A DNA stretch of 64,000 nt from Opitutaceae bacterium (GTDB taxonomy: Bacteria > Verrucomicrobiota > Verrucomicrobiia > Opitutales > Opitutaceae): assembly GCA_005792355.1 (NCBI GenBank), contig SXSC01000059.1:1-64000 (forward strand), given 5' to 3'. Positions within the stretch are counted from its first letter, which is position 1. Each line of letters starts with the position of its first letter. This document shows, one piece after another, positions 6,912-16,246 of this stretch. A program made the position numbers and the translations under genes. Below the pieces are notes generated by a model. That model had not been told where the DNA came from. It saw only the letters and a program-made list of their open reading frames with translations, and made no database searches.

Positions 6912-7892
6912 ATGAAATCGCACCCTGCCGCTTCCCTGGAAGTCTCCCGTCGTCGTTTCCTCTCCCAACTCGCCGTCGCGGGCGCCGTCGTGCCGCTCGC
7001 CCGGATCTCATCCGCCGCCAGCGCCCCGGCCGCCGGAGCCGGTGGTCCGACGGTGATCCATGTTTTTTCGAAGCCGCTGCATTGGCTGTCCCATGCGGAA
7101 ACCGCCCGCTTGGTTGCCAGCACCGGTTACGGCGGCATCGACTACACGGTCCGCGTGGCGCAGGGCCATGTGCTGCCGGAGCGCGTGCAGGAGGATCTCC
7201 CGCGGGCGGTCGACGCCGCCCATGCCGCCGGCCTCAAGGTCGAGATGATCACCACGGACATCACCAGCCTGAGAGACAAACACGCCGAGACCCTGTTGCG
7301 GACCGCGGCCAAGCACGGGGTGAAGTACTACCGGCTCGGCAACTTCAACTACGACGCAAAGCTGGGAGTGGTTGGCACCCACGAAAAATTGAAACCCGGG
7401 CTCAGGGAACTCGCCGCCCTCAACGCGAGCCTTGGTCTGCACGGAGCAATCCAGAATCACGCTGGCGTCCGGGTGGGCAGCCCGGTGTGGGATCTCTACG
7501 AGCTCCTGCGCGACCTCGACCCGCGCGGTCTCGGCATCCAATACGACATCCGCCATGCCGTCGTCGAAGGCGGGCAGTCGTGGCCGCTGGCGCTCAAGCT
7601 GCTCGCGCCGTGGATCAAATGCACCGACATCAAGGATTTCAAATGGGAGCAGGCGCCGGGCAAGGCGACGATTGAGAACGTCCCGATGGGCGAAGGCATT
7701 GTGCCCTTCGACGCCTACTTCAAGCTCGTGCGCGAGCTGAAGATCTCCGGCCCGATGTCAGTGCACCTCGAGTACGCGCCGTTTGAGCGGTCGAAGATCA
7801 CCGAGGCGGAAAAACGCGTTCAGTTCCCCGCGCTGATGAAGCGGGATCTGGCGGCGTTGCAGGGATACATGGCGAAGGCCGGTGTCAGCTGA
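6912..7892 (+). CDS. Tat-signal sugar phosphate isomerase/epimerase family protein
   Basis: SRRRFLSQLAVAGAVVPLA Tat motif; xylose-isomerase-like TIM barrel sequence. Confidence 0.85.
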   Translation: MKSHPAASLEVSRRRFLSQLAVAGAVVPLARISSAASAPAAGAGGPTVIHVFSKPLHWLSHAETARLVASTGYGGIDYTVRVAQGHVLPERVQEDLPRAVDAAHAAGLKVEMITTDITSLRDKHAETLLRTAAKHGVKYYRLGNFNYDAKLGVVGTHEKLKPGLRELAALNASLGLHGAIQNHAGVRVGSPVWDLYELLRDLDPRGLGIQYDIRHAVVEGGQSWPLALKLLAPWIKCTDIKDFKWEQAPGKATIENVPMGEGIVPFDAYFKLVRELKISGPMSVHLEYAPFERSKITEAEKRVQFPALMKRDLAALQGYMAKAGVS

Positions 7893-8016
7893 GGCTGCTT
7901 CGAGGTGGAGCGCGTCGTCCCCAACGCGCCTCCGCGGGTCCGCAGAGTTCCAATCCAGCGTCTTGGGGACAAGCCGCTCCACCCCGAAAAACCCATTTCT
8001 CCACACGGTGACCTCC

Positions 8017-9318
8017 ATGACCGCTCCTCCTCCCATCACGATCGCCCGCGTGGGCGCCAACTTCGAACGTGAGCCGCTCGTCCGACCCTTCGGCTTCAAA
8101 GGCGGCTACCAGTCGGAAATCTGGCAAAGCGCGGCGCTGCTCGAAAGCGCCTCTGGTGAGCGCGGCATCGGACTTTGCACGCAGGGCGTGCTCTGGAGCG
8201 ACGCGCACGTGTTCGCCGGGCACTCGGAAAGCGGCGGCAACGCGCTGATGTACGCGGTGACGGAGTGGGCGGTCCAGCAGCTCAAGGGGCGGACTTTTTC
8301 CGATCCGATCGAACTGCTCGACGAGATCCGCCACGACGTTTTCGCGTACGCGAAGAAAATCACCGGGCACGCCGCGCTGCGCGAGACGTTTGCGCTCAAC
8401 GCGCTCGTCGGGGTCGATTTCGCCGCGTGGCTGCTGTATGCGCGGGCCAACGGCATCACGACGTTCGACGAGCTGATTCCGGCGGCGTATCGTCCCGCGC
8501 TCGCGACCAGACATGCCCGGGTCGCGAGCATCCCGCTCATGGCGTACGCCGTGCCGATCGAGGAGATCACGGCGGCCGTCGACCAGGGTTACTTCTTCAT
8601 GAAGATCAAAATCGGCCAGCCCGGGACGCAGGCCGAGATGCTCGCGAAGGACCAGGCGCGGATCAGCGCGATTCACGCCGCCATCGGCCACGCGCGCACG
8701 CCGTACTCGGCCAGCGGGAAGCTGCCGTATTACTTCGACGCCAATGGCCGCTACGAGAGCAAGGACACGCTGCTGCGGCTGCTCGACCATGCGCGCGCGA
8801 TTGGCGCCTTCGAGCAGATCGCGCTCATCGAGGAGCCGTTTCCCGAGGAGCTGGAGATCGACCTCAGCGACATCCCGGCGCGCGTCGCGGCGGATGAGAG
8901 CGCGCACACCGATGTCGATGCGCTCAAGCGAATCCAGATGGGCTACAAGGCCATCGCGCTGAAACCGATCGCGAAGACGTTTTCGATGTCGCTCAAGATT
9001 GCGCAGCTCGCGCACGAGCGCGGCGTGCCGTGTTTCTGCGCCGATCTCACGGTGAGCCCGCTCCTGGTCGAATGGAACAAGAACGTCGCCGCGCGGCTCG
9101 CGCCGTTCCCCGGCCTCGGCCTCGGGTTGCTCGAGACGAACGGGCACCAGAATTACCGGCAGTGGGAGACGATGCGCAGCCATCACCCGGCGCCCGCGGC
9201 GCCGTGGGCGCGGACCCAGCGCGGGGTGTTCGAGCTCGACGCGGATTATTATGCGCGGAGCGGCGGTATTTTTCAGACGGCACCGCATTACGAGGCGATG
9301 TTCGGTCCGTCCAGGTAG
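8017..9318 (+). CDS. enolase superfamily enzyme (mandelate racemase / muconate lactonizing enzyme-like)
   Basis: KIKIG, YFDANG, LIEEPF, AADES metal/catalytic motifs; start at MTAPPPITIARVG. Confidence 0.88.
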   Translation: MTAPPPITIARVGANFEREPLVRPFGFKGGYQSEIWQSAALLESASGERGIGLCTQGVLWSDAHVFAGHSESGGNALMYAVTEWAVQQLKGRTFSDPIELLDEIRHDVFAYAKKITGHAALRETFALNALVGVDFAAWLLYARANGITTFDELIPAAYRPALATRHARVASIPLMAYAVPIEEITAAVDQGYFFMKIKIGQPGTQAEMLAKDQARISAIHAAIGHARTPYSASGKLPYYFDANGRYESKDTLLRLLDHARAIGAFEQIALIEEPFPEELEIDLSDIPARVAADESAHTDVDALKRIQMGYKAIALKPIAKTFSMSLKIAQLAHERGVPCFCADLTVSPLLVEWNKNVAARLAPFPGLGLGLLETNGHQNYRQWETMRSHHPAPAAPWARTQRGVFELDADYYARSGGIFQTAPHYEAMFGPSR

Positions 9319-9391
9319 CGGCCGGCGCGAGCGAGGGGACAAAGAACCACTCGCCGGCGCCCGCCGCCCCGCCGGAAGAAAATCCCGCCCC

Positions 9392-10810
9392 ATGATCCGA
9401 CTTCTCTCCGCCGAGCTGTTCCGCCTGGAACTGCATGCGCGCATGCCGTTTCGCTATGGCATCGCGACGATGACCGACGTGCCGCAGATCATCGCGCGGC
9501 TCACGTTCGAACTCGATGGCGCGATGGAAACCGGCCTCGCGGCCGACCTGTTGCCGCCGAAGTGGTTCACGAAAAATCCGACCCGGGCGCTCGGCGAAGA
9601 AATTGACGAGATGCTCCGGGTGATCCGGGCGGCGATCGGCCATGCCCGGATTTTGCGTGCCGCGACGCCGTTTGCTTTTTGGCATGAGCTTTGCGGGGCG
9701 CAGGCGGAATGGGCTGCGGCGGAAAAACTGCCGCCGCTGCTCTCAAATTTTGGCACGTCGTTCGTGGAGCGCGCCCTGCTGCATGCGGTCTGCCGCGCGC
9801 GCCGCGCCACCCTGGCGCAGGCGCTGCGGGAAAACATTTTCGGCGTCGACCTCGGTTGGGCGCAGCCCGCGCTCCGCGGCGTCGCGCCCGGTGATTTCTT
9901 GCCGGCCGATCCGCCGGTCGAAATTTTTGCACGCCATACGGTCGGGCTGTCCGATCCGATCACCGCCGGCGATCTGGCGGCGGGAGAACGCGTCGACGAC
10001 GGCCTGCCGCAGACGCTGGACGAGGTCATCCGTTTCTACGGGCAGCGGCATTTCAAAATCAAAATCAACGGCGAGGCGGCGCGCGATTGCGACCGGCTCG
10101 CCCGGATGGCGGCGGTGCTGGCGGCGGAGGGCGGCGGTGGTTTTGCCTTCTCGCTCGACGGCAACGAGAGCTTTCACGACGTGCCGTCGTTCGCGGATTA
10201 TTTTCGTCGCCTGCAGTCGGAGCCGGCGCTGCGCGCCCTCTGGCCGCGGCTGATGTACGTCGAGCAGCCCTGGCATCGCGCGGTGGCGCTCTCTCCGGCG
10301 ATCGGCGAACTCGCGCGGGCGTGGCCGGACCGCCCACCGATCATTATCGACGAGAGCGACGCGGAACTGGCGAGCCTGCCGGCGGCCTTGGCCCTCGGCT
10401 ACGCGGGCACCAGCCACAAGAATTGCAAGGGAGTCTTTAAAAGCGTCGTCAACGCCGGGCTCCTGGCACAACGGCGCGCGGCGGGCCGGCCGGCCGTCCT
10501 GAGCGGTGAGGACCTGGGCAACGTGGGGCCGATCTCGACGTTGCAGGATCTCGCCGCGCAGGCGGCGTTGGGCGTCACGAGCGTCGAGCGTAACGGCCAC
10601 CACTACTTCGCGGGTCTCGCGCAGTTCCCGCGCGCGCTGCAGGAGCACGCGGTTCGGCGCCATCCGGATCTCTATGTGGCGGCGGCCCAGGCCTGGCCGC
10701 GGCTCGACCTCCGTGACGGCAAACTCGCGATTGGCTCGGTCAACGCCGCGCCGTTCGGCGTGCCGGGCGAGGTGGAGTTGTCGGAGATTGCGGGTGAGAC
10801 GCTGGGGTGA
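9392..10810 (+). CDS. enolase superfamily enzyme
   Basis: HFKIKING, SLDGNE, YVEQPW, IIDESD motifs; tandem with the preceding enolase-superfamily gene. Confidence 0.85.
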   Translation: MIRLLSAELFRLELHARMPFRYGIATMTDVPQIIARLTFELDGAMETGLAADLLPPKWFTKNPTRALGEEIDEMLRVIRAAIGHARILRAATPFAFWHELCGAQAEWAAAEKLPPLLSNFGTSFVERALLHAVCRARRATLAQALRENIFGVDLGWAQPALRGVAPGDFLPADPPVEIFARHTVGLSDPITAGDLAAGERVDDGLPQTLDEVIRFYGQRHFKIKINGEAARDCDRLARMAAVLAAEGGGGFAFSLDGNESFHDVPSFADYFRRLQSEPALRALWPRLMYVEQPWHRAVALSPAIGELARAWPDRPPIIIDESDAELASLPAALALGYAGTSHKNCKGVFKSVVNAGLLAQRRAAGRPAVLSGEDLGNVGPISTLQDLAAQAALGVTSVERNGHHYFAGLAQFPRALQEHAVRRHPDLYVAAAQAWPRLDLRDGKLAIGSVNAAPFGVPGEVELSEIAGETLG

Positions 10811-10847: not shown

Positions 10848-13800
10848 TCAAAACAACGGCGCGTTGTTCTTGGGGTCGCTGAGCAGGGCCTCGAAGCGGG
10901 GATCGCCCTTGAACGCGCGCCAATTGGGGTTGTGGCGGAACGCGTGGACATGTCCGGCGTAGGGCGTCCGGAGGCATCTTTCCAGCTCGTCGAGCGCCAG
11001 TTGCCGGTCGCCGAGGAGGGCAAGGCTGTTGGCGAATTGTCCCCGTCTTTGTCCATCGATCCAGTGATCCGGGCGGCCGGAGGAAAGGAGTACCTGGCCT
11101 TCGCGCAGCAGCCCTTCCCGGTCGCCGAGCAGCGCATATAGCGTCATGACGGATCGCCGGGCGCCGAAATTCTGACCGTCGCGCGCGATCGCGGATTGGA
11201 GGTCGGGAAGCGATTTCTGCGCGAGCGCGCGGGCGGCGGGGAGGTCATCAAGGGCGATCAGCTCCTCGATCGAAGGGGGCGGCGGCACCGCCGGCGGTGT
11301 TTTTTCGGTGCTCTTGCGGGGATGCCGCTTGGCGACCTCGTCGGCCTCCTTAAACCGGCCGCTTTGCCTGAGCCACACCTGCCGCACTTGGAGCAACTTG
11401 GGATCGCCCTGCGCGAAATAGGTCTGCGTTGCGAACCACTCATCCACTTTCTGGATCGATCCGTGACCGAAGAATTCGATCAACACACACAGATAGCGGG
11501 AAAATGGATCTTCCGGTTTCAGGTCGGCGCAACGCCGCCGATACACCCCGGCCTCGTCGTAGCGTCTGATCGCATCCAGCACGCTGCCCAGGTTGCTCGA
11601 GAGATTGAAGGATCCGGGATCGAGTTTGGCCGCCTGCCGCAGGGCGGCGAGGGATTCGCTCCAGCGTCCGAGGCGGCGATAGATGTAGCCCAAACTTTCG
11701 AGAATGTCGGCCACGTTGGGACCCACGAGCAGCGCCTGCCGGTAGTGCTCGGCCGCCTTTTCCCATTCCTTCATCGCATAGTATTGGAAGTCTCCCTGGG
11801 CCTTGATCGTCGTGTGACTGTCCGGGGCGAGCCGCAGCGCGGTCTCCAGGGCGTGCCTGGCCTGGGCCAACCGCTCCGGTGTGTGCTGTCCGCGCGAGTT
11901 AAAGTAGATGAAGGAATGGGTGCGGACGAGCGCCGCCCACGCCTCGGAAAAATTGGGATCCAGCCGGACGGCTTCGAGCAGCAGTGGCTCGGCTTGTTCC
12001 TCGCGGTCGGCGAACCGGGCGGCGACAAGCCGTTCGTAGGCGACGGAGTTCTGGGTGGGGCGCGCCTCGAGAATCGACCGCTCTTGCGGCGAAATGACGG
12101 CCGACAGCGCCCGGGCGATTTCCTGGGCCAGCTCGGATTGGACCGCAAAAATATCGGTGAGCTCCCGGTCGTAGGATTTTGCCCAGACGTGCCGATCGGT
12201 CTGGGCGTCGATCAACTGCCCGGTCACACGCACGGCCTTCCCGGCACGCCGCACGGTTCCTTCCAGAATGAAGGCCACGCCCAGTTCGGTGCCGATCTGC
12301 CGGGCGGTTTTCGTGGTGGCGCGGTATTGGAGCACCGACGTGCGCGAGATCACATGGAGCTCTCTGACGACCGCCAGGTTGGTCAGAATGTCATCGTGCA
12401 CGCCGTCGGCGAAAATCGTGGTGTCCTTTTCCTCGCTGAGATTGTTGAACGGGATCACCGCGATGGATTTCTCCGGCACGGCGGCGGGGGCCGCCGGGTC
12501 GGCCGGCTTCGTCGCCTTCGCGACTGGCGGCGAAACGGCGACGGCCGGCGGCAAGGGTGCGTTCGGCGGTCGCTTGGGCCAGACCAACCATCCAATCGTG
12601 ACGAGGGCCGCCGCGGCGCCGCCGGCCATGATCCAGCGCCGGCCCGAATTGGATTTCCGGGCCGCGACCGGCGTACCGGCGCTCAACGCCCGCAGATCCG
12701 CGAGGAGGGCGCCGGCGTCGGGATAGCGTTTCGCGGTGGCCGGATCGCACGCGCGCCGGACGACTTCGTTGAAGGCGGAAAAGACCGTGCGATCCGCGGG
12801 CGCGATCTTGTCGGAGATCCGCGGGTATTCCTTGCGATCGAAGCCCGTCGAGAGCTCGTAGAGGACTTTCCCGGCGGCGAAAACATCCGCCGCCGGCGTG
12901 CCCGATCCTTCGGGGGGGACGAATCCTTCGGTGCCGACATACGTGCGCGCGTCCGCACTTACCGCCACGAGTCCGATATCGGCGAGTTTCGCGACCCCGC
13001 TGACGAGGATGACGTTGGACGGCTTGATGTCGCGGTGCACGAGCCCGTGGGTGTGAAGTATGGAAAGTTCGCGGACCATTGACACACCGAGGGCGAGACA
13101 CTCCTTCACGGGCAGAGGTGCCCGGCGCTCACGAACCTCCTTCAGGGTCAACGGGCGGTAACGGCCGGGATCGATGCTGCGACCGGTTTCGATGTCGTCG
13201 GCCAGCTCCATCACGTAGTAGAAAAATCCCGCGGGTTCGTTCCGGCCGACATGCAGCAGGGCGATGCCTCCGGCCGCGGCCAGCGGCCCGGACATCGATT
13301 CCTTCAGGCCGCGAAATTCCCGCTCGAAGGGTTCGGCGTCGGAGAACCGATCGCGGCGGACAATTTTGACCGCGCGATAGGCGCCGGTGACTCCGCGCGC
13401 CAACCACACTTCGCCGTAGCCGCCTTCGCCGATGGGACGCAGCAGTTCATAGTCCGGGATTTTCGGCGGGAGACTGGTGCGGCTGCCGGTCGTGGATTTG
13501 AGCGAAGGTTGGTCAGAGGCGGAGAGGATGGCACTGCCTTTCGGCGCGATGTGCCAGACTGGGATCGGCTCGGCGATATTCTTGAATTCCTCCGGGCCGC
13601 GAAAGACCGATTCCATCGGTACCTTGCCCTTGATGGTGTCGTACACCATCTGGCTCACGCAGAGTCCGCCCACCGGGGCTTTGCCCTCCAGGCGGGCGGC
13701 GATGTTGACCCCATCTCCGGCGATGCCGCCGGTTTCCTGGCGAAAGACGTCGCCGATATGCACGCCCATCCGATGTTCCAGGGCGAGGTCGGCCGGGGTC

Positions 13801-14579
13801 GTTTCCCGGCGCCGAATAAACTCGGCTTGAGTTTCCAGTGCCCAGTTCACGGCCGTCACCGCGCTGCCAAACGAGATCAGCAGTCCATCCCCCATGGAAT
13901 TGAGGACTTCCCCGCCGTGGCCCTTGCAACGCTCGATCATGGTGGCGAAGTCCGCTTGCACGAGCCGCAGCGTGGTCGCCTCGTCGCTCTGCATCCGGCG
14001 CGAATAGCCGACGATATCCGTGAACACGATCGCCGCGAGCCGCCGTTCAGTCCCCGTCAGGGACGGGCCGGACTGGCTGAACCGGGCCGTTGTGCCGGAC
14101 GAAGTCTGCGGTGCCGCGCCGCCGATGCGTTGCTCCCACAGCAGGCGCAACCGCCCGACTCCGTCCGCCGGTAGGTTGCCGTTGGATACGCGGGTCCATT
14201 GCACTTTCCGAAACCGGTCCGGCACCAGGGCCTCGGGTTCGGTTGTGCCATCGATGACCATCGGCAGGATGAAGGGTATGCCCGCCGCGATGCCCATCGC
14301 CCGCTCGGCGGCCAGCTCCCACTCGATGCGGAAATAACCCTCGTGGCGCGCCTGGGTGTTGGCCGAAATCAGGGGGATGAACAGCACGCAGTCCCGGATT
14401 TGTTTGCGAATCTTCCCGTCCCAGGCGTCACCGTGCTGGAGGCCGCCGTCGGCATCGAACCAAATCTCGACGCCGGCCGCGCGCAGCGCCGCGCAAATGC
14501 GTTGCGCGGCATCGGCGTCCTGCGACGCGTAGCTGAGAAAAACAGCGCGGGGGTGGAGCGTGAGCGGGGTTTCTGACAT
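10848..14579 (-). CDS. multidomain signalling protein: TIR - class III nucleotidyl cyclase - Ser/Thr protein kinase - TolB/FlgO-like - TPR
   Basis: 1243 aa. TIR: VFLSYASQDADAAQRICAALRAAGVEIWFDADGG...GYFRIEWELA. Cyclase: LAAIVFTDIVGYS...VLNSMGDGLLISF...GDGVNIAARLE. Kinase: IGEGGYGEVWLA..RAVKIV..HRDIKPSNVIL..LADIGL. TolB-like: KSIAVIPFNNLS...FADGVHDDILTNLA. C-terminal TPRs. Confidence 0.93.
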   Translation of the reverse strand: MSETPLTLHPRAVFLSYASQDADAAQRICAALRAAGVEIWFDADGGLQHGDAWDGKIRKQIRDCVLFIPLISANTQARHEGYFRIEWELAAERAMGIAAGIPFILPMVIDGTTEPEALVPDRFRKVQWTRVSNGNLPADGVGRLRLLWEQRIGGAAPQTSSGTTARFSQSGPSLTGTERRLAAIVFTDIVGYSRRMQSDEATTLRLVQADFATMIERCKGHGGEVLNSMGDGLLISFGSAVTAVNWALETQAEFIRRRETTPADLALEHRMGVHIGDVFRQETGGIAGDGVNIAARLEGKAPVGGLCVSQMVYDTIKGKVPMESVFRGPEEFKNIAEPIPVWHIAPKGSAILSASDQPSLKSTTGSRTSLPPKIPDYELLRPIGEGGYGEVWLARGVTGAYRAVKIVRRDRFSDAEPFEREFRGLKESMSGPLAAAGGIALLHVGRNEPAGFFYYVMELADDIETGRSIDPGRYRPLTLKEVRERRAPLPVKECLALGVSMVRELSILHTHGLVHRDIKPSNVILVSGVAKLADIGLVAVSADARTYVGTEGFVPPEGSGTPAADVFAAGKVLYELSTGFDRKEYPRISDKIAPADRTVFSAFNEVVRRACDPATAKRYPDAGALLADLRALSAGTPVAARKSNSGRRWIMAGGAAAALVTIGWLVWPKRPPNAPLPPAVAVSPPVAKATKPADPAAPAAVPEKSIAVIPFNNLSEEKDTTIFADGVHDDILTNLAVVRELHVISRTSVLQYRATTKTARQIGTELGVAFILEGTVRRAGKAVRVTGQLIDAQTDRHVWAKSYDRELTDIFAVQSELAQEIARALSAVISPQERSILEARPTQNSVAYERLVAARFADREEQAEPLLLEAVRLDPNFSEAWAALVRTHSFIYFNSRGQHTPERLAQARHALETALRLAPDSHTTIKAQGDFQYYAMKEWEKAAEHYRQALLVGPNVADILESLGYIYRRLGRWSESLAALRQAAKLDPGSFNLSSNLGSVLDAIRRYDEAGVYRRRCADLKPEDPFSRYLCVLIEFFGHGSIQKVDEWFATQTYFAQGDPKLLQVRQVWLRQSGRFKEADEVAKRHPRKSTEKTPPAVPPPPSIEELIALDDLPAARALAQKSLPDLQSAIARDGQNFGARRSVMTLYALLGDREGLLREGQVLLSSGRPDHWIDGQRRGQFANSLALLGDRQLALDELERCLRTPYAGHVHAFRHNPNWRAFKGDPRFEALLSDPKNNAPLF

Positions 14580-15010: not shown

Positions 15011-16246
15011 TTATTTGAAGAAGCCGCGGTCGTCGGCGAGGTGCTGGCGGCAGACGTCCTCGTTCAGCTCCACGCCGATGCCGGGCTTTTTCGACAGCAC
15101 GAGATGCCCATCGGTATATAACGGCCCGTCGCGCTGAATCAGATCCTGCCAGTGCGGATGGCGGTGGTTTTCAACCGTGTCGGTCTCCAGCGCCACGAAT
15201 GACTTGATCGCCGCGCACGCGTGCGCGGAACCGAAGACACCCACCGGCGTCGCCCCCTGGTGGCAGAGCATCGGAATCGAGTAGAGATCGGCCCAGTCGG
15301 CGATCTTCTTCGTCTCAAGCAGGCCGCCGCATTTCTGCGCGTCCGGGTGCACCAGGTCGCAGGCCTGCTTCTCGATGAAGGGGCGGAAACCCTCACGCGC
15401 ATAGAGGTTCTCCCCGGTCAGAATGGGCACGCGGCTTTCCGCCCGCAGGCGCACGAAGGCATCCGCGTTCTCCGGCTGCAGGGGATCCTCAAGGAACCAG
15501 ATGTTCAGATCCTTGATCATCTCGGTGAAGCGGAGTACGTCGCCGAGGGCGTAGCGCCAGTGCAGGTCGATGGCGATGGGATAATCCGGCCCGACGGCGT
15601 CGCGCGTCGCCGCCATGATGCGCGTCCAGTGCCGCAGGGTCGCCGGCGAAATCGTGCTGTTCTTCGGTCCGTCAAATCGCTGGAGGCTGTGCTTGACCGC
15701 CTTGTAGCCGAATTCCTTCGAGCGGACGGCGAGGTCGGCCCAGGCTTTCGGCTCGTCGACCTTGGGCTTGTCGGTGTCGTTATAGAGCATCACCTTGTTG
15801 CGATAAGCGCCGCCGAGCAGCACATACACCGGCACGTTGAGAATCTTGCCGGCCAGATCCCACAGGGCGGACTCGATGCCACCGATTGCCCCGCATAACG
15901 CCCCGGCCCGCGCCCCGCGCGACATGTACTGGTCGACCATCCGGAAATGGAGATACTCCACCTGCAGCGGGTCCTGGCCGATCACCATGTTCTTGACGGA
16001 GTGGATATCATCGCCGACCTCAGCTTTTGGATACGCTTCGCCGAGACCGAACAGCCCGGAGTCGGTCGTGACCTTGATCAGGTGGGTCTTGTAGCCGATG
16101 TCGATCGCCGCGGTCTTCACGTCGGTAATCTTGACGGCGCCGAGGGCGGACCTGGCGGCGGGCACGGCCCCCAGCAGCTGCGACGGCGCGGCCAGCGCGC
16201 CGGTCGAGCCCAGGGCGGCGGATTTGAGGAAGGAGCGGCGGTTCAT
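15011..16246 (-). CDS. Tat-signal enolase superfamily enzyme (RspA / acid-sugar dehydratase-like)
   Basis: MNRRSFLKSAALGSTGALAAP; AIDLHWRY, WFLEDPLQPEN, TGENL, QKCGGLLE motifs. Confidence 0.88.
   Translation of the reverse strand: MNRRSFLKSAALGSTGALAAPSQLLGAVPAARSALGAVKITDVKTAAIDIGYKTHLIKVTTDSGLFGLGEAYPKAEVGDDIHSVKNMVIGQDPLQVEYLHFRMVDQYMSRGARAGALCGAIGGIESALWDLAGKILNVPVYVLLGGAYRNKVMLYNDTDKPKVDEPKAWADLAVRSKEFGYKAVKHSLQRFDGPKNSTISPATLRHWTRIMAATRDAVGPDYPIAIDLHWRYALGDVLRFTEMIKDLNIWFLEDPLQPENADAFVRLRAESRVPILTGENLYAREGFRPFIEKQACDLVHPDAQKCGGLLETKKIADWADLYSIPMLCHQGATPVGVFGSAHACAAIKSFVALETDTVENHRHPHWQDLIQRDGPLYTDGHLVLSKKPGIGVELNEDVCRQHLADDRGFFK

Follow-up and report, generated by a model that had tools for sequence, protein, structure and literature searches.

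The window examined here, a stretch of 64,000 nucleotides from a draft genome of an Opitutaceae bacterium, carries on its reverse strand a single unbroken open reading frame (positions 10848-14579, stop codon counted in) that begins with ATG, has no internal stops and encodes a complete receptor of 1243 amino acids. From the N-terminus onward the protein consists of a TIR domain, a class III nucleotide cyclase, a Ser/Thr kinase, a predicted transmembrane helix and a TolB-like/TPR region. The initial annotation had placed TIR, cyclase, kinase, TolB-like and TPR modules in one such chain, and both the intact frame and the domain matches bear it out: Pfam recognizes TIR_2 at aa 13-141 (E 6e-17), Guanylate_cyc at aa 183-325 (E 3e-6, passing the cut-off), Pkinase at aa 377-579 (E 2e-19) and TPRs at aa 957-1000, NCBIfam adds TPR_END (NF047558) at aa 1183-1233, and the TolB and CadC family models match aa 705-885, weakly. 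The frames at 7882-9318(+), 9251-10810(+) and 15011-16246(-) comprise enolase-superfamily (MR_MLE) genes to both sides of the receptor and, between these, another reading frame without a match in Pfam.

The genome is a draft in 416 contigs, its contamination is put at about 5%, and the fusion was seen in no other genome, all of which might be expected if the gene were an artefact of assembly or annotation, or were decaying. We regard this as highly improbable, given an intact frame, a uniform codon pattern, linkers that fall at domain edges, catalytic residues that persist in paralogues of 60-75% identity, and the presence of another three-headed gene elsewhere in the genome, on contig C360 (locus L011). 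The GC content by codon position (0.67/0.48/0.80) follows a coding pattern and is alike across all modules, so that the frame is neither a chance ORF nor an obvious chimeric join; together with the gene on C360, this ruled out a chance ORF or chimera.

The TIR domain (14136-14552 on the reverse strand, as for all features below; aa 10-148; Pfam TIR_2) has its catalytic glutamate at E86 (14322-14324), in the motif FRIEW and downstream of a loop containing S72, which gives it the TIR fold with a catalytic Glu after a Ser-containing loop that marks the NADase type. E86 is invariant in the alignment, being present in 86 of the 86 TIR domains from this genome whose alignment reaches that column. 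The kinase domain (12672-13469, aa 371-636; Pfam Pkinase) contains K405, E419/E421, an HRD at 515-517 (H515-R516-D517), K519, N522 and D534, the last being the Asp of a "DFG" motif that here reads DIG; with K405, D517, N522 and D534 it has the Lys, HRD, Asn and DFG Asp of a Hanks-type enzyme, and structure comparison assigns its model a PknB fold. In the model of aa 1-665 the individual domains are good, while the pTM is 0.55 and the placement of the heads relative to each other is not fixed by it. All of the motifs named in the initial annotation (FRIEW, the cyclase metal Asp residues, NIAAR, the kinase Lys and HRDIKPSN) are present in our residue tables; the list was sound as far as it went, but it did not include the DIG-for-DFG change or the two cyclase residues N227 and G285 discussed next. 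The retention of catalytic features that it proposed thus holds for the TIR, the kinase and the core of the cyclase, but not for the base-selecting pair of the latter, which has been replaced.

The cyclase domain (13548-14048, aa 178-344; Pfam Guanylate_cyc) has PDB entry 3mr7 as its best structural match, with an E value of 2e-29 by sequence and TM 0.87-0.89 by fold. It contains the two metal Asp residues (D188 and D231) and the transition-state Asn and Arg (N292 and R296) of a class III cyclase, and these four positions are kept in 98 of 98 homologues, including the clade of the window protein. The Lys site of the base-selecting pair is K in 82 of these homologues and N in 13, the window protein having N227 (13899-13901); the Asp site is D in 84 of 98 and G in 9 of 98, the window protein having G285 (13725-13727). 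Lys and Asp occur together in 82/98, and the pair tends to change jointly (N/G in 9 rows, N/Q in 2 and N/H in 1). In the cyclase tree the window protein sits in an 11-row clade (support 93/93), all of whose members have a changed pair. The adenine-selecting Lys and Asp/Thr pair of a canonical adenylyl cyclase is therefore absent, with N227 and G285 instead, and because both base-selecting residues are replaced, an ordinary cyclic-nucleotide product is not supported. The same joint replacement of Lys/Asp, by Asn together with Gly, Gln or His and with the catalytic residues all kept, is seen at loci L063, L064 and L066 as well as in the window's clade, and also in Ramlibacter. One further frame with a same-clade cyclase, L013:1921-2763 (281 aa; G000:C224), has no recognized TolB part and lies directly downstream of a TIR-cyclase-TolB gene, of which it is possibly a fragment or duplicate.

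By comparison with characterized enzymes, the changed pair should not be taken to mean an inactive cyclase, because changes in Ma1120 leave activity in place and the solved cyclase Rv1900c likewise has Asn at the Lys site in the alignment. Ma1120, also of class III, retains adenylyl cyclase (AC) activity when the Asp at this site is changed to Gly; with both sites changed it is still an AC and gains GC activity as well (PMC4215837). R142 of EaPycC stands four residues ahead of the metal ligand D146, so that by our own count of equivalent positions PycC enzymes, too, differ at the Lys site (PMC11224242). The comparisons with Ma1120 and Rv1900c, and the 98-of-98 conservation of the metal Asp pair, Asn and Arg, speak against the idea that only one or two of the heads are enzymes and the others a scaffold or regulator, with the cyclase the likeliest to be non-standard, as a nucleotide-binding dimerization module of weak or altered activity. 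The idea nevertheless draws on the confinement of the Lys/Asp to Asn/Gly change to a defined cyclase clade, on the kinase of C360, whose HRD motif reads HSD and thus lacks the Arg, and on a report of bacterial conflict proteins with several domains in which cyclase and kinase heads are inactive (PMC7159879); we hold it to be a serious, if tentative, alternative.

Between the kinase and the TolB-like part, outside the globular domains, hydropathy peaks at aa 649-667, after the basic stretch RKSNSGRR, and we take this peak as the single predicted transmembrane helix (12576-12635, approximately aa 649-668); further peaks near aa 94 and 523 were set aside because they fall within globular domains. 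Beyond it come the TolB-like alpha/beta subdomain (12105-12467, aa 705-825) and a helical TPR region extending to the C-terminus (10851-12104), the latter recognized from Pfam TPR families, the end-of-group motif NF047558 and the structural model. The AlphaFold model of aa 700-1243, built with 29 aligned sequences, has a mean pLDDT of 92 and a pTM of 0.90. In a Foldseek search with it, the TolB-like plus helical periplasmic fold of a CadC-like sensor was recognized, the periplasmic structures of CadC (3lya, 3ly9, 3ly8 and 3ly7) being within the top seven matches, at TM 0.65-0.68 of target, rmsd 4.6-4.8 and 14% identity over more than 300 columns; the CadC family model matches aa 712-885 (E 1e-4). 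CadC-type one-component receptors have a cytosolic output, a single transmembrane helix and a periplasmic sensor of TolB-like and helical parts, as is predicted for the window protein; unlike them, it has no winged-helix head (a Pfam scan of the protein gave no N-terminal winged-helix DNA-binding domain, and a TIR stands at the N-terminus), carries three enzyme-type heads in its place, and is related to CadC over the matched region only at the identity given above. On the simplest reading of the single hydropathy peak, the positively charged residues ahead of it and the resemblance to CadC, the heads would lie in the cytosol and the TolB/TPR part in the periplasm. The description of the protein as an integrated sensor fits with a CadC-like sensor half and a predicted transmembrane helix.

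Proteins of TIR-TolB-TPR, TIR-kinase-TolB-TPR and TIR-cyclase-TolB-TPR type in the same genome and family share the modules and their order with the window protein, with heads approximately 60-75% identical to its own, but carry one or two heads where it carries three. Matches spanning both TIR and cyclase were found, in a search of 57 relatives and 252 genomes of the family, in four genes of the window genome and in a single gene in each of G068, G070 and G084, so that such fusions occur in just 3 of the 251 other family genomes. Among 390 Verrucomicrobiota genomes, only that of the window gave matches extending over TIR, cyclase and kinase, in two genes (those of the window and of C360), and there were none among the matches scored in the 389 others; these searches scored 3 to 8 candidates per genome and follow these particular subfamilies, so that the same domain order built from unrelated subfamilies would escape them. 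When about 85,000 species genomes were scanned with a cyclase profile, TIR-cyclase genes appeared, among the matches listed, only in Opitutaceae or Opitutae records, and the few candidates scored per genome in 245 cyanobacterial and 399 pseudomonadotal genomes included no TIR-cyclase match. Our search of the literature found no paper on TIR+TolB receptors or on the TIR-cyclase-kinase triple. It had been suggested at the outset that pairs of these modules are familiar and three heads unusual; pairs are indeed frequent in the lineage, and the triple was found by profile searches of genome collections in one genome only.

The kinase subfamily of the window protein has four copies in the genome, each of them (4/4) downstream of a TIR; in the window and C360 genes a cyclase lies between TIR and kinase, while the genes on C269 and C254 have none. 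C360, which runs off the end of its contig, is closest in its other parts to the TIR-cyclase-TolB gene on C5 (88% identity in the TIR, 80% in the cyclase and 62% in the tail), and its kinase is 71% identical to those of C269 and C254 vs. 62% to that of the window. The window protein has its closest tail in C269 (60% identity in TolB, 46% in TPR), with which it groups in the tail tree with support of 100. In the kinase tree C360 falls inside an 8-row clade (97/94) that does not include the window protein, and a sister relationship of the two kinases is rejected (p-AU 0.004). Because of these identities, the tail tree and the rejected sisterhood, the order with three heads most likely originated on two occasions, although the window kinase is a long branch (0.55) in that tree and we are less sure of two independent assemblies than the p-value suggests. 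The window gene would have come from a TIR-cyclase front joined onto a kinase-TolB-TPR back of the C269 type, and C360, separately, from a kinase inserted into a TIR-cyclase-TolB receptor of the C5 type, the shuffling having presumably taken place in a lineage with many TIR-TolB-TPR receptors. A single origin of the TIR-cyclase fusions was likewise rejected (p-AU 0.0005); those of G068, G070 and G084 have cyclases with the ordinary Lys/Asp pair. Silent sites are saturated among the paralogues, and the sole dN/dS estimate, for the tails of C360 and C5, is 0.24/1.48.

The window genome (G000, an 8.4-Mb draft) shows a strong lineage-specific expansion of TIR domains, with 94 matches to TIR_2 (PF13676), where 26 other genomes from the genus have between 0 and 56 (median 2). 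A recognizable TolB-like part without a cyclase or kinase of these subfamilies accompanies the TIR in 46 of the 93 TIR-bearing frames examined, while others that were sampled have propeller repeats, SIR2-like or other kinase domains. Eight TIR matches are clustered within about 30 kb of one contig (C223:23.6-53.8 kb; L146, L147). A family of proteins of about 480-520 aa with a C-terminal TIR has several copies, encoded at L148:3989-5473 and L187:4968-6407 and, with similar size, at L159, L165, L180, L184, L191 and L193; in the two that were scanned (L148 and L187) a SIR2-like domain precedes the TIR, giving two NAD-linked domains per chain. At L144:4565-8134 a 1190-aa chain combines a TIR with a Ser/Thr kinase of a different subfamily and a PD40 beta-propeller. 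The genome also has eight matches to cNMP-binding domains, and therefore contains cyclic-nucleotide receptors. One of these, a 280-aa cNMP-binding-TIR protein resembling PycTIR (E 6.5e-15), is encoded at L141:4095-4937 (G000:C131, about 38 kb), where it adjoins a multicopper oxidase gene, with a cyclase-domain gene about 4 kb off on the same contig.

The occurrence of TIR, Pycsar-type cyclase and PD-T4-6-type kinase domains in defence systems, the weak PADLOC matches of the window protein to PycC, PD-T4-6 and TIR models, and the PycTIR-like gene just mentioned would all suit an anti-phage or abortive-infection switch, in which the sensing of phage damage to the envelope would lead the TIR to deplete NAD+, with the cyclic nucleotide and the kinase as amplifiers. 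The PADLOC matches are, however, to generic kinase, TIR and cyclase domains, the PycTIR-like gene is on a different contig, the neighbors of the receptor are metabolic (enolase-superfamily, PhoD-like phosphatase and DHDPS-like genes, with no defence genes among them), and the approximately 90 TIR proteins, most of them TIR-TolB-TPR receptors, suit a large repertoire of receptors equally well. The defence switch that had been proposed thus gains no specific support and is, in our estimation, unlikely; nor do the metabolic neighbors support a reading of the locus as a defence island. Pycsar systems (PycC with PycTIR or PycTM) resemble the window protein in bringing cyclase and TIR chemistry into one pathway, but here everything is in one chain, without a cyclic-nucleotide receptor domain and without an adjacent PycTIR or PycTM; the scanned flanking genes are metabolic and carry no such receptor domain, and membership in Pycsar was set aside, the PycC match being partial and weak (E 7e-10). 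The TOMM system kinase/cyclase fusion protein (TIGR03903) also has a kinase and a class III cyclase in one chain, but no TIR, and the window protein scores 47.4 against a cut-off of 705.75 bits. TIR, cNMP cyclase and kinase also serve as interchangeable effector heads in vWA-MoxR and related multi-domain conflict systems (PMC7159879); the window protein has them without vWA, MoxR or STAND parts, and with a membrane sensor in place of these.

We therefore favor, with a probability of about 0.6, a CadC-like single-pass inner-membrane receptor with three cytosolic heads that arose by domain shuffling, its topology, activation and enzyme activities being as predicted above and below. One transmembrane helix would connect a periplasmic TolB-like/TPR sensor with the output half in the cytosol, where TIR, class III cyclase and Ser/Thr kinase, in a row, would replace the usual single head. 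Most likely, a ligand or envelope stress at the sensor would alter dimerization or clustering of the receptor. TIR domains and class III cyclases function in assembled or dimeric form, and dimerization often activates Hanks kinases; because all three families work through self-association, a single event could start NAD+ cleavage by the TIR, production of a cyclic nucleotide and trans-phosphorylation at the same time. Alternatively, the kinase could gate the TIR and the cyclase. That all three outputs (an NAD+-derived signal, a non-adenine cyclic nucleotide and a phosphoprotein) are active at once behind one periplasmic sensor, in a receptor assembled twice from a large TIR repertoire, appears rather doubtful to us.

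Modular one-component receptors are already known, and the three-head order is an added variant of them; a bacterial membrane receptor predicted to carry TIR, nucleotide cyclase and protein kinase on its inner side is nonetheless a striking product of domain shuffling. Two further points emerge from the case: a subclade of cyclases has an altered base-selecting pair, and an Opitutaceae-type genome encodes about 90 TIR proteins, many more than the rest of its genus. With three heads combined behind one sensor, as seems to have happened more than once in this genome, a single protein allows one to ask whether a single input may lead to NAD+ cleavage, a cyclic nucleotide and phosphorylation together, or whether one head would gate another.
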